Below are positions 11,581-37,111 of a stretch of 37,111 nucleotides of DNA, piece by piece. Below the pieces are notes generated by a model. It ran no database searches, was not told where the DNA came from, and was given only the letters and a program-made list of their open reading frames with translations. A program made the translations under genes and the position numbers. Within the stretch, counting starts at the first letter, position 1. Every line of letters starts with the position of its first letter. This stretch comes from a virus, in the IMG/VR virus record IMGVR_UViG_3300035692_000011, positions 1 through 37,111 of that record. One strand, 5' to 3'.

Positions 11581-11865
11581 ATGGAATCGAAAATGAAAAG
11601 ATGTCGATCATGTAAGCTAGAATTTGATCACACAGGGGCTTCTGAAAATACATGTTGCCTTGTTTGCTTGGCATGGTATAAAATTGGTCATCACAATGAT
11701 CAATATGATTTTGAACGCATTTTTAAACATGAATTATATATAAAAATTGCACATTCCCTGTCTGATGTAAATACAACAATTGATGACACCGGTATAGAAG
11801 TGGAAATTTGTTTAGGTTTATTGGATGAAATTAATGCGTGCAAAGAAGCGAGGAGCAAAGTATGA
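11581..11865 (+). CDS. Small protein with Cys4 zinc-ribbon-like N-terminus
   Basis: This 94-aa protein has CRSCKLEFDH followed by TCCLVCLAW, giving two CxxC pairs (residues about 9-12 and 26-30) that could bind zinc. The remainder is an acidic helical tail. AGGG precedes the ATG by about 8 nt. The last four bases overlap the scaffold start (ATGA), a sign of coupled translation. It could bind nucleic acid or an assembly partner. No family is recognised. Confidence 0.55.
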   Translation: MESKMKRCRSCKLEFDHTGASENTCCLVCLAWYKIGHHNDQYDFERIFKHELYIKIAHSLSDVNTTIDDTGIEVEICLGLLDEINACKEARSKV

Positions 11866-12650
11866 GCTTTGAGATACAATATGATAAAGATGGTGTCGTT
11901 ATTCAAAAACCTGAACCAATCTTTCAAGAAGAAGCTGCCGAACAACCAGTAGCTGCCGCTCCTGAAGTAGAACAAACAATCCAAGAGGAACTGCCGCAAG
12001 AACAACCAGTTCAAGAAGTGCAGCAATCATACAAGCCTGCTCCGCAAGAATCATGGAAAATGCTCCGCGAAAAAGCAGAGCGCGCCGAACGCAGGGCAGA
12101 AGAACTTGAGAGGATGATATTGGAAGCTCAGTCAAAAAAACAACCAGAAACAGAGGAAGATCTTAACGTTTCTGTTGAAGATGATTCTCTTGTTGAAGGT
12201 AAACATCTAAGCAAGGTAAACAAGAAGATCCAGAATTTAGAGCGGCAACTAAAACAATATGAGCAACAATCATCGTTGAGCTCCACTGAGATCAAACTAA
12301 AGACACAATATCCTGATTTTGATAGTGTTGTTTCGGCGGATAACCTTAATAATTTAAGGAGTATGTACCCTGAAATTGCGCATACTATTAATTCCTCTAG
12401 TGATCTTTATAGTAAGGCTGTTGCTGCGTACACCATGATTAAGAAACTTGGCATTTCTCCACAAGAAGACCTGTATAAACAGGAAAAAGAACTCGCTCAA
12501 CGCAATGCAGCTAAGCCAAAATCATTAGCAAGCATTTCTCCTCAACAGGGAGATAGTCCGTTATCTAAAGCAAATGCGTTTGCGAATGGTACTTTGACTG
12601 ATGAATTGAAAGCGCAAATGTGGAAAGAAATGAATCAGTATCGTAAATGA
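11862..12650 (+). CDS. Capsid scaffolding protein (putative)
   Basis: This 262-aa protein starts at ATG 11862 with GAGGAG 6 nt upstream; an earlier in-frame start at 11838 is rejected. Composition and order fit scaffolds: an acidic, Glu/Gln/Pro-rich N-terminus (residues 1-70), a long coiled coil (about 70-145: LREKAERAERRAEELERM, VNKKIQNLERQLKQYEQQ), a YPDFDSVV segment and a helical C-terminus ending in ELKAQMWKEMNQYRK, which would bind the coat protein. It lies directly before the major capsid gene, its usual position. A strong terminator follows at 12694. Confidence 0.8.
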   Translation: MSFEIQYDKDGVVIQKPEPIFQEEAAEQPVAAAPEVEQTIQEELPQEQPVQEVQQSYKPAPQESWKMLREKAERAERRAEELERMILEAQSKKQPETEEDLNVSVEDDSLVEGKHLSKVNKKIQNLERQLKQYEQQSSLSSTEIKLKTQYPDFDSVVSADNLNNLRSMYPEIAHTINSSSDLYSKAVAAYTMIKKLGISPQEDLYKQEKELAQRNAAKPKSLASISPQQGDSPLSKANAFANGTLTDELKAQMWKEMNQYRK

Positions 12651-12693: not shown

Positions 12694-12740
12694 CCCCAAA
12701 TAACTGTAATTCACCTATAGTTATTTGGGGATTCTTTTTA
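12694..12740 (+). terminator. Strong intrinsic terminator after scaffold
   Basis: CCCCAAATAACT (12694-12705) pairs perfectly with AGTTATTTGGGG (12719-12730), a 12-bp stem with two more possible pairs inside, followed by ATTCTTTTTA. It isolates the capsid transcription unit from the portal-scaffold unit. Confidence 0.85.
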
Positions 12741-12752: not shown

Positions 12753-12770
12753 ATAAATACCTTTTTTTAG

Positions 12771-12792
12771 TCGGAGTACTCCGATTTTTTTT
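12771..12792 (+). terminator. Second intrinsic terminator before the capsid gene
   Basis: The 14-bp palindrome TCGGAGTACTCCGA (12771-12784) folds with a GTAC loop and is followed by eight T residues. CTTTTTTT lies just before it. Two strong terminators within 100 bp tightly insulate the capsid unit. Confidence 0.8.
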
Positions 12793-12795
12793 AGG

Positions 12796-12827
12796 GGTTG
12801 GTTACGTGTAGGTGGCCAACCTTTCTT
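12796..12827 (+). terminator. Third hairpin in the scaffold-capsid gap
   Basis: GGTTGG (12796-12801) pairs with CCAACC (12816-12821) and is followed by TTTCTTT. It may be a weak back-up terminator just before the capsid promoter. Confidence 0.4.
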
Positions 12828-12838
12828 TATATTTACAC

Positions 12839-12867
12839 TTGCTTATCTTTTTTGTTGATTATATGAT
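12839..12867 (+). promoter_or_regulatory. Sigma70-like promoter of the major capsid gene
   Basis: TTGCTT (12839-12844), a 17-bp spacer and TATGAT (12862-12867) give a good promoter match with a start near 12874. It lies immediately after three terminators and before a structured leader, which fits an independently and highly expressed capsid gene. Confidence 0.65.
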
Positions 12868-12874
12868 GCCTATG

Positions 12875-13030
12875 AACGTAATTTGGAAGTCGTTCTTCCA
12901 ATCTGCAAGGTATTTCGGAGTAGCGATCCGAATCTGTCTGGACGCAATCGGGCATCGTCCACCGAATGACGCAATGTAAGATCTCGTCAGTCTTAAGTAT
13001 AAATATTGGTTTAATACTTAAGGAGCTACT
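12875..13030 (+). promoter_or_regulatory. Structured 5' leader of the capsid mRNA: five consecutive hairpins
   Basis: The leader of about 155 nt decomposes into five perfect stems. (1) TTGGAAG 12883-12889 with CTTCCAA 12895-12901. (2) TTCGGA 12914-12919 with TCCGAA 12927-12932. (3) TGGACG 12939-12944 with CGTCCA 12956-12961. (4) TGACG 12967-12971 with CGTCA 12985-12989. (5) CTTAAGTAT 12992-13000 with ATACTTAAG 13014-13022. Stem 5 overlaps the AAGGAG ribosome site (13020-13025). GACGCAAT is repeated at 12941 and 12968. No known riboswitch is recognised. Confidence 0.6.
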
Positions 13031-13978
13031 ATGTCTATTACGACTACTAGCACGCTGCCTGCACCAGTGCAGCAAAGCTTCTCGTACAAATTACTATCTG
13101 TACCAGTTCCAAATATGATCCATAAAATACCTGCGATGAAGAAGAACATGCCGCGCAATGGTGGTACAACTCTTCGTATGCGTAGATATAATCCGCTTAA
13201 TACAGCGATGGTTCCTCTTGGAAATTCTGGTATTACTCCTCCTGCTCAAAATCTTACTGCGGTAGATATTGATGCGGTGATCTCATTCTATGGAACATAC
13301 GTTCAATTGAACGAACAAGTTACCTTACAAAACCAAGACCCAGTGTTGAACGAATGCGCAGCACGTCTTGGTGTTTCTCTCCGTCAAACCGAAGATCAAT
13401 TGACCCGTGATATGTTAGCAGCAACCGCTGGTTTCATTAACTGTGTTGGTGGTGTTAATGGTGATAACCCAACTGAAATCACCCGTTCAGACGTTGATGC
13501 TGTTGTACGAACATTGCTTAATAACAATGCGTACACCATCATGGATAACATCGAAGGTGAAGATAAGTTCGGTACTGCACCAGTTCGTGATGCATACTTT
13601 GCATTATGTTCAACTCAGTTGACTGGTAACCTTGATGCTGTTGCTGGATTCATCCAAAAGAATCAATATCCTGCTCCGATGAACGCGCTTCGTTCAGAAT
13701 GGGGTGCGATTGGTAACCTACGATTCTTGATTTCGTCCATTGGTAGTTTTGCTGCGAATGCATCTTCAAATGGTGCTAACGTATTCAACATATTCTGTGT
13801 TGGTATGGAAGCATATGCATGCATCGAGCAAGATGGATATTCTGCAAGCTTTATCTATAGACCGCCTATATATGATGGGCCATTAGCGTTGAACGCTTCT
13901 GTTGGTTATAAATTTGCTGAGGTTCCAAGAATTACTAATGATTTGTGGGTAATTAACTTACGCGCGACATTAGCTTAA
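13031..13978 (+). CDS. Major capsid protein, N4-gp56 family
   Basis: This 315-aa protein carries the N4-gp56-type signature near the N-terminus: SFSYKLLSVPVPNMIHKIPA, MPRNGGTTLRMRRYNPLNTA and MVPLGNSGITPP. AVDIDAVISFYGTYVQLNEQ, LQNQDPVLNECAARLGVSL and TRDMLAATAG follow, and it ends with VGYKFAEVPRITNDLWVINL. These features define an HK97-fold coat protein. AAGGAG lies 5 nt before the ATG. The gene has its own promoter and a structured leader behind a triple terminator, which suggests strong and separately tuned expression. Length fits the family. Confidence 0.93.
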   Translation: MSITTTSTLPAPVQQSFSYKLLSVPVPNMIHKIPAMKKNMPRNGGTTLRMRRYNPLNTAMVPLGNSGITPPAQNLTAVDIDAVISFYGTYVQLNEQVTLQNQDPVLNECAARLGVSLRQTEDQLTRDMLAATAGFINCVGGVNGDNPTEITRSDVDAVVRTLLNNNAYTIMDNIEGEDKFGTAPVRDAYFALCSTQLTGNLDAVAGFIQKNQYPAPMNALRSEWGAIGNLRFLISSIGSFAANASSNGANVFNIFCVGMEAYACIEQDGYSASFIYRPPIYDGPLALNASVGYKFAEVPRITNDLWVINLRATLA

Positions 13979-24410: not shown

Positions 24411-24414
24411 CCCA

Positions 24415-35898: not shown

Positions 35899-36132
35899 TT
35901 AATCTTTCTTATTGTAAACACCTATAATGCTGAGCCATCCAGGAGGGAATTCTCCTTTGATGAAATAGTGTTCTATGATATCACCAGCGCGTACCCAATG
36001 TGGCTTGCTTTCATCCTTGCTGGTTTGTATCCAAACCTGAGTGCCTTTATCCTTTTCTGCTATCCATACCGTGGCATATTCCTCGCATGATGAAAGATTA
36101 GTCGGAGTCGTATACTTATGGATCGTTTTCAT
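35899..36132 (-). CDS. Hypothetical 77-aa protein at the end of the ERF operon
   Basis: The start at 36130-36132 is preferred because AAAGGA lies 6 nt upstream; the ATG at 36136-36138 directly abuts that site. It overlaps the ERF-B stop by one base (TAATG), so translation is coupled. The protein is small and mixed alpha/beta (ATVWIAEKDKGTQVWIQTSK, then HWVRAGDIIEHYFIKGEFPP) and has no recognised family. The position after two annealing proteins suggests a DNA-metabolism accessory, which remains inference. Confidence 0.6.
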   Translation of the reverse strand: MKTIHKYTTPTNLSSCEEYATVWIAEKDKGTQVWIQTSKDESKPHWVRAGDIIEHYFIKGEFPPGWLSIIGVYNKKD

Positions 36133-36839
36133 TACCATTCCTTTCTTGGAGAGTTCATCAGGGCTAATTTCTGCTTTCTTATATTCTGCATTTGGGAAGC
36201 ATACTTTGCTTTTGGCATATCGGAAAGATTTTGTATCTCTAATGCCTTCTTTAAGCTCTCGGTCATGATAGGATAATCTTGTAGCTCATAGTGTAGCTCA
36301 TCCAGTTGTTCTCGTGTTATCTTTTCAGTAAATACTCCTTGATCAATATGTGCCGGTTTGGGATCACCTGCCAACGAGCGACGGGACTCGTTATTGTATT
36401 GAGTTTCAGAAGCATCAGCATCATCATTGTCTTCAGGATCGTTATTGGCTACCACACCAAGCATGCATTGCGCTACCTGTCTTTTTAAGTACGCAAGCGA
36501 TTCACCAAACCGTTGGTTATCTGACTTAGCACCAGTATAACCAGGCACAATGAGTCTACTTTTGCAGATTATCTCCTGGCCACTGGCATGCCCTAATGTG
36601 GAATAGAGGAACGTGGTCCCATCCTCATCGCGAGGTTCTTGGATGAAGACGAGACCATTGTTTGCCAAAGCTTTATTAGTCGCCTTTTGTATCAAATCCA
36701 AATCAGCATATACCTGCTTATTAAAGGAATTTACTCGATTGAAAGTTACATTACGATACTCAAGTTTTGCCTTAGCGAGTGCTCCATATAACTTATCTCT
36801 CTTCCCCGATGCTTCTTCTGACTTATCTCGTTCTTCCAT
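36132..36839 (-). CDS. ERF-family single-strand annealing protein B
   Basis: This is a 235-aa protein. Core ERF pattern: LYGALAKAKLEYRNVTFNRV, VYADLDLIQKATNKALANNG, GTTFLYSTLGHASGQEIICK and SDNQRFGESLAYLKRQVAQC followed by MLGVVANNDPEDNDDAD. Such proteins anneal single strands in phage recombination, often with an exonuclease or SSB, neither of which is seen here. It starts 2 nt after the stop of ERF-A, a second ERF protein with the same order of motifs (GSAMTYLKRY, then an acidic DDDGD run). The C-terminal third is unique, basic and helical. AGAACGAGA rather than a strong ribosome site precedes the ATG, so coupling to ERF-A is likely. Confidence 0.85.
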   Translation of the reverse strand: MEERDKSEEASGKRDKLYGALAKAKLEYRNVTFNRVNSFNKQVYADLDLIQKATNKALANNGLVFIQEPRDEDGTTFLYSTLGHASGQEIICKSRLIVPGYTGAKSDNQRFGESLAYLKRQVAQCMLGVVANNDPEDNDDADASETQYNNESRRSLAGDPKPAHIDQGVFTEKITREQLDELHYELQDYPIMTESLKKALEIQNLSDMPKAKYASQMQNIRKQKLALMNSPRKEW

Positions 36840-36841
36840 AG

Positions 36842-37111
36842 TTATTCTTTCGCCTTTAATTTATCTACTATCTGATTCACATACTTTGCAGGCATATCTT
36901 TTAGGTTATTTACCCCATAATGTTTGCAGATCTTATCTTCAAGTTCCACATCACCTTTAATATATGATCGCACAAGCCACACCTGTTTGTCGCTTATAAG
37001 CGACTCTTGTACTATGCTATCCCCATCATCATCGTGTTCTGAAGTAGCTATACCACAGATAGATGCATAGACATATCTCTTTAAGTACGTCATCGCTGAT
37101 CCAAACTTTTG
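36842..37111 (-). CDS. ERF-A, 3' part (window end cuts its start)
   Basis: This is the C-terminal part of the gene described at 1-409; bases 36985-37111 repeat 1-127. From GSAMTYLKRYVYASICGIAT through an acidic HDDDGD segment it ends with NNLKDMPAKYVNQIVDKLKA and the stop at 36842-36844. An internal ATG at 37091-37093 gives a shorter 83-aa frame, which is not the real start because the frame stays open into the repeated sequence. The C-terminal DMPAKYVNQI resembles the LSDMPKAKYASQM stretch near the end of ERF-B, a further sign of common origin. Confidence 0.85.
   Translation of the reverse strand, partial: QKFGSAMTYLKRYVYASICGIATSEHDDDGDSIVQESLISDKQVWLVRSYIKGDVELEDKICKHYGVNNLKDMPAKYVNQIVDKLKAKE
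36985..37111. repeat. Terminal direct repeat, right copy
   Basis: These bases are identical to bases 1-127. Removing one copy closes a circle of 36,984 bp and restores the ERF-A reading frame without any change. Confidence 0.95.

Follow-up and report, generated by a model that had tools for sequence, protein, structure and literature searches.

Structured leaders in phage and bacterial mRNAs

How a single gene of a dsDNA phage yields such large amounts of capsid protein within a short time is poorly understood. In the gene 32 mRNAs of T4, T2 and RB69, a pseudoknot lies in the phage mRNA leader, 5' of the start of an abundant protein. It is present as a single copy with longer loops, is followed by an A+U-rich tract, and its binder, gp32, is known. 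In 2010, this T4 pseudoknot was described as possibly the only viral case of a pseudoknot in translational autoregulation (PMC3014915). The ompA, papA and aprE mRNAs, which are heavily translated, carry simple hairpins at the 5' end or adjacent to it, and are cited as cases of 5'-terminal structure stabilising bacterial mRNA (PMC3997798). The exoribonuclease-resistant RNAs of flaviviruses and plant viruses, which form a three-way junction or another fold in the 3' UTR of RNA viruses, are small and often tandem pseudoknotted folds. They can stop 5'-3' nucleases including RNase J1, a bacterial enzyme that can be blocked by a viral RNA fold (PMC5760640).

The preQ1 and SAM-II riboswitches are compact H-type pseudoknots able to control a ribosome site. 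The put RNAs of phage HK022 are structured RNAs just 3' of phage promoters in early operons, and consist of two hairpins of conserved sequence that act alone. Phages escape type III toxin-antitoxin systems by ToxI mimicry. The antitoxin RNAs ToxI, CptI and TenpI are tandem H-type pseudoknots located 5' of an ORF (PMC5086642).

The window analysed here, a viral DNA stretch of 37,111 nt, contains a capsid mRNA leader that resembles each of these systems in part. As in gene 32, pseudoknots are located in the leader of the gene that would be regulated, but there are two to five of them, the first at the predicted +1, and the gene encodes a capsid protein. Where ompA, papA and aprE have simple hairpins, the phage leader has covarying tandem pseudoknots. 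It differs from the type III antitoxins in that S1 and S2 vary among the copies of one leader instead of forming near-identical repeats, and in that no terminator and endoribonuclease toxin gene follow; the capsid gene comes directly after the array. A conserved ligand pocket and metabolic genes, as in preQ1 and SAM-II, are absent, as is the two-hairpin architecture of put. No sequence relation to the exoribonuclease-resistant RNAs is apparent, and their covariance models in Rfam do not match the leader.

A search of Rfam 15 with the window and 20 relatives gave no match at the gathering threshold and weak chance matches only below it. A known Rfam family was thus rejected as the identity of the element, and an earlier note on this DNA was right to see no known riboswitch in it. 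No such element was found in the literature either, which is weak evidence of absence as the search covered open-licence papers and no preprints. The leader therefore apparently represents an undescribed, strongly covarying RNA family.

The capsid locus and its promoter

The features of the locus are listed in Table 1. In relatives, the TTG of the -35 element (84/88/77%) and a TATAMT -10 element are conserved; the window promoter is not among the sites listed by a simple promoter scan of the window. A -10 hexamer, defined as a match to TATAAT in at least 5/6 positions, ends 6-7 nt 5' of the first pseudoknot copy in 41 of 92 leaders, compared with 1 of 141 for later copies. Since the -10 element is phased to copy 1, transcription is expected to start with the first base of pseudoknot 1, at about position 12874 in the window. 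Going by this predicted start, structure lies within a few nucleotides of the 5' end, as in ompA.

Two more tandem terminator-like hairpins (12769-12786 and 12793-12824) are located between the main terminator and the capsid promoter. The next clear + strand terminator-like hairpins after the array are found at 24414 and 26796, and the unit runs for ~10 kb. The genome is encoded on the + strand, apart from two ORFs on the - strand at the right end of the window (36132-36839 and 36842-37093).

Table 1. Features at the capsid locus of the window. S, stem; L, loop; a and b, the two strands of a stem.
Feature	Position	Strand	Basis or details
Scaffold-like gene, upstream of capsid gene	11838-12650	+	Similar C-termini and position compared with the L117 homologue
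Intrinsic-terminator-like hairpin, strong	12694-12737	+	3' of the scaffold-like gene; sets this gene apart from the capsid transcript
Putative sigma70-type promoter, TTGCTT-17-TATGAT	12839-12867	+	Sequence and conservation in relatives; TTGCTT 12839-12844, 17 nt, TATGAT 12862-12867, 6 nt, then GAACG at 12874
Pseudoknot copy 1, predicted 5'-terminal	12874-12901	+	Fits relatives' consensus; S1a (G)AACG 12874-12878, L1 TAAT 12879-12882, S2a TTGGAAG 12883-12889, L2 T, S1b CGTT 12891-12894, S2b CTTCCAA 12895-12901
Inverted repeat 1	12883-12889/12895-12901		7 bp; S2 of copy 1
Degenerate copy 2	12914-12932	+	S2-like hairpin TTCGGA-GTAGCGA-TCCGAA, 7-nt loop
Inverted repeat 2	12914-12919/12927-12932		6 bp; the degenerate copy
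Pseudoknot copy 3	12939-12965	+	S1a TGGACG 12939-12944, L1 CAA, S2a TCGG 12948-12951, L2 GCAT, S1b CGTCCA 12956-12961, S2b CCGA 12962-12965
Inverted repeat 3	12939-12944/12956-12961		6 bp; S1 of copy 3
Pseudoknot copy 4 (last)	12967-12995	+	S1a TGACG 12967-12971, L1 CAATG, S2a TAAGA 12977-12981, L2 TCT, S1b CGTCA 12985-12989, L3 G, S2b TCTTA 12991-12995
Inverted repeat 4	12967-12971/12985-12989		5 bp; S1 of copy 4
Ribosome-site hairpin (inverted repeat 5)	12991-13023	+	10 bp plus 4 bp past a bulge; 5' arm reuses S2b of copy 4; pairs AAGG of the Shine-Dalgarno sequence
Shine-Dalgarno AAGGAG	13020-13025		
Major capsid protein gene	13031-13978	+	PHROG 1357 major head protein; weak Phage_capsid_4

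Anatomy of the pseudoknot array

The earlier note had described the leader (12875-13030) as five consecutive perfect hairpins. All five inverted repeats are present, although the fifth is longer than the 9 bp assigned to it. The simple-hairpin model did not hold, as most of the repeats are halves of pseudoknots. The repeat GACGCAAT, said to be shared by two stems, has exactly two occurrences in the whole window (12941 and 12968) and comprises S1a and loop 1 of copies 3 and 4. In copy 1, the innermost S2 pair is shared with the fifth S1 pair. Copy 2 has no clear S1 partner upstream and is listed among the copies without an S1 match. A motif scan of the window identified the capsid leader as its only tandem-knot cluster.

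Sequence comparison indicates that the leader is almost certainly built of compact H-type pseudoknots in tandem, whose structure is conserved more than their sequence. The comparison of folding energy with shuffled sequences, proposed earlier as a check, is marginal for the 159-nt leader alone (z = -1.93, with 9/200 shuffles equally good), because nested folding cannot show pseudoknots.

Consensus unit and covariation in relatives

A capsid protein search of viral contigs yielded 592 relatives, the best 80 of which (85-97% identical) were read. The order of the unit is S1a-L1-S2a-L2-S1b-L3-S2b, as in GACG-UAU-UAAGC-CU-CGUC-A-GCUUG, with the consensus S1a (NNCG)–UA–S2a–(N)U–S1b (CGNN)–A–S2b. 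About six positions per 26-nt unit are invariant, while the stems are very variable. The near-invariant bases are the CG of S1, the U before S1b (95-100%) and the A at position 2 of loop 1 (83-93%); the latter two could form an extra A-U pair on S1 across a bulged pyrimidine. S1 occurs with the CG core as GACG/CGUC, GGCG/CGCC, AGCG/CGCU, AACG/CGUU and UGCG/CGCA, and outside this core as GACC/GGUC and AGCA/UGCU. A variant unit with a one-base bulge in S1 (GGC-N-G...CGCC) is found in leaders L020, L029, L044, L052 and L068.

Compensatory changes, which the earlier note had asked for, were found in both helices across 97 nonredundant leaders. When copies are anchored on S1 and S2 is scored blind, 127 of 173 copies have an S2 of 4 bp or more, compared with 41.6 when tails are swapped among copies (maximum 59 in 1000 permutations); anchoring on one helix avoids circularity. 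Conversely, with S2 as the anchor, 79 copies show 4/4 S1 pairs, against 14.2 expected (maximum 25). In 57 ungapped copies, 106 double changes were counted versus 32.8 after shuffling, with S1 cells being paired by construction and S2 cells not. Sliding the partner collapses the pairing.

A descriptor without any sequence demand retrieves 94 units in 60 leaders, against 8.7 in dinucleotide shuffles; requiring the CG core changes these numbers to 60 and 0.3. The same descriptors match 27 and 17 units on the reverse complement of the leaders, as expected because the structure is partly symmetric. On the strength of the descriptor counts and double changes, chance structure was rejected. The simple-hairpin reading was likewise discarded, as two interleaved helices are conserved in relatives. 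The initial view that the leaders are unalignable was also dropped: leader identity is ~57%, by a crude estimate, where the capsid gene exceeds 75%.

The register of the helices is fixed, with L2-L3=1 at any S2 length, which is expected if both stems form together as one fold. Such a fold is expected to present a ~7-base loop, N-U-CGNN-A, in which CGNN pairs with an upstream strand. Common descent of the copies could also play a part in the fixed register. Loop 3 spans only 0-2 nt over a 4-bp S1; for a coaxial H-type knot of the classical kind, this is very short.

The ribosome-site hairpin

The overlap of the last hairpin with the ribosome site, as claimed in the earlier note, is borne out, and the hairpin is coupled to the last pseudoknot in the window's clade only. 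TCTTA (12991-12995) serves both as S2b of copy 4 and as the anti-Shine-Dalgarno strand, so that the knot and the ribosome-site hairpin are mutually exclusive. Within this clade, S2b of the last copy pairs with its own ribosome site at -4.62 kcal/mol, compared with -3.15 kcal/mol when permuted among leaders (sd 0.20), and pairing with the ribosome site is stronger for the last copy than for earlier ones (p about 1e-4). No specific signal for pairing between S2b and the ribosome site was found in the second clade. Thus, the coupling is considered a clade-specific addition, and was rejected as a universal feature.

Occurrence of the arrays

Across 1.6 Mb of partly overlapping loci, 304 strict copies of the unit were found, and 303 of them lead this capsid gene. 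Most (292) are located within 320 nt 5' of the capsid start, and a further 11, counted by hand, lie 5' of capsid genes split by an insert after codon 11-14. Exon 1 was located for 10 of these 11 copies; the insert in L141 was deduced from a match that begins at residue 13. On the opposite strand of the same loci, there are no strict copies (0/304). Motif-only DNA patterns applied to all viral contigs, blind to the capsid gene, placed 28 of 30 loci 5' of this gene, and all 14 loci of a third pattern carry it. A genome-wide spread of the element was rejected, as both the window and the 1.6 Mb of loci carry it in the capsid leader only. A second, more distant capsid clade (~63% identical) possesses arrays of the same kind.

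Using the strict detector, two to five copies were found in 80 of the 97 nonredundant leaders, one in 12 and none in five. The 17 leaders with low counts contain degenerate units recognisable by eye or are clipped by the contig end. In the cultured phages with distant N4-gp56 capsids (Y3, StenR_269 and poppyseed), the capsid gene abuts the preceding gene and the leader is absent.

The one remaining strict copy belongs to L117 (4949-5723), where a single pseudoknot precedes the scaffold gene, a homologue of the scaffold-like gene of the window, and the capsid gene downstream has no leader of its own. Judging from this natural relocation, being located where a transcript starts is more important than the capsid codons.

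Two further peculiarities of these loci were observed. Intron-like inserts of roughly 0.2-1.2 kb interrupt the capsid gene in many relatives, often right after codon 11-14 (TLPAP), namely in L012, L039, L057, L062, L063, L080, L141, L149, L153 and L161, and also in L089, L105, L107, L115 and L116. An Rfam search of these inserts returned no family at the gathering score. In leaders of the P0002 clade, such as L118, L125 and L128, TATGTACGTTTGTACTTTAGGAGTGTGTGT is nearly invariant before the start codon, and CATAG/CTATG pairing leads from this region back to S2b of the last knot.

Proposed role and alternative explanations

The earlier suggestion of a selected, ordered regulatory RNA in this leader gains strong support from covariation, gene specificity, promoter phasing and the lack of an Rfam match. 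Its start site, fold and stability are all predictions. In the preferred reading, the main role is protection of the 5' end, which comes close to an even chance, and ribosome-site switching as an added layer in the window's clade is put forward slightly more tentatively. The most far-reaching reading, given a probability of roughly 0.4, is a new class of phage RNA in hundreds of uncultured phages represented by environmental contigs alone, in which a 5'-terminal tandem-pseudoknot cap would shield the capsid mRNA from host nucleases while the last unit meters capsid synthesis.

A 5'-terminal knot would leave no free single-stranded 5' end, so that neither pyrophosphohydrolase plus RNase E nor 5'-to-3' RNase J would be able to load. 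Further knots may serve as back-up roadblocks, with the leader kept free of cleavage sites. As a result, the mRNA of the most abundant virion protein would be long-lived and heavily translated. An additional role as a translational switch is proposed for the last knot in the window's clade: the ribosome site would be open when S2b closes the knot, and closed when S2b pairs with the Shine-Dalgarno region. Because transcription reaches the knot first, a fresh message would be "open" by default. The presence of a separate terminator upstream of the capsid promoter favours the shield.

Several observations speak against parts of this proposal. Copies 2 to 5 would be expected to decay if the 5' end were all that counts, but they retain the conserved U, CGUA and A. 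A general stabiliser would not be expected to be nearly absent from other highly expressed genes. Shield and switch together are also at odds with the missing ribosome-site signal in the second clade, the degenerate copy 2 of the window and the very short loop 3.

The strongest rival is autogenous control. Here, the knots would be bound co-operatively by free capsid protein or by a scaffold-capsid oligomer, which would repress capsid translation while no shells are being assembled. The near-absolute link to one gene family across two clades ~63% identical fits this explanation, and so do the unpaired or unvarying bases in every copy, the suitability of tandem copies for a multivalent shell protein and the coupling of the last copy to the ribosome site in the window's clade. 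T4 gp32, acting at its leader pseudoknot, provides a precedent (PMC3014915). Nevertheless, the copy phased to the promoter is copy 1 and not the ribosome-proximal one, stem sequences differ widely among the copies of one leader, the L117 knot precedes the scaffold instead of the capsid gene, and no RNA-binding feature was seen in the capsid protein. Autogenous control is therefore regarded as unlikely, at about half the weight of the preferred reading.

Alternatively, nascent knots could influence RNA polymerase where the late operon begins and prevent pausing or termination, in the manner of HK022 put. This idea, which is clearly less probable than autogenous control, draws on the array being at +1 of a ~10 kb unit before the next clear + strand terminator-like hairpin, and on the L117 element also being at a transcript start. 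However, no strong terminator that would need read-through lies close downstream, late genes of other families do without the element, and put relies on hairpins of conserved sequence.

A tandem metabolite riboswitch, with each knot being an aptamer like preQ1 or SAM-II, is very unlikely. Compact pseudoknots with invariant unpaired bases and an alternative pairing with the ribosome site would suit an aptamer, but so few invariant positions, variable stems, two to five copies, a structural instead of a metabolic gene downstream and the empty Rfam search do not.

A DNA-level element, such as a binding, packaging or recombination site, is marginally less credible still. Interleaved inverted repeats could bind a protein. 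The excess of G-U over A-C inside S2 (9 vs 3) was counted on the side of DNA as a small one, with too few cells to weigh as proof of strand. The fixed-register interleaved pairing, the +1 phasing and the strand restriction fit RNA instead, and a DNA site need not track the capsid start.

The least plausible candidate is a decoy or antitoxin mimic (pseudo-ToxI, mentioned in PMC5086642) on the most abundant message, directed against a host type III toxin-antitoxin system: tandem pseudoknots 5' of a gene are a ToxI hallmark and ToxI mimicry is a phage escape route, but the copies differ in both stems, neither a toxin gene nor a terminator between array and gene is present, Rfam offers no match, and the absolute link to the capsid gene would be left unexplained.

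Implications

If the shield reading is true, a short, portable and modular fold at the +1 of the capsid transcript, maintained by compensatory change, would be the bacterial-virus counterpart of the nuclease-resistant RNA elements. Such a fold may find use as a compact stabiliser for bacterial mRNAs. If autogenous control is true instead, the leader would be the first case in tailed phages of a pseudoknot array that mediates capsid feedback.
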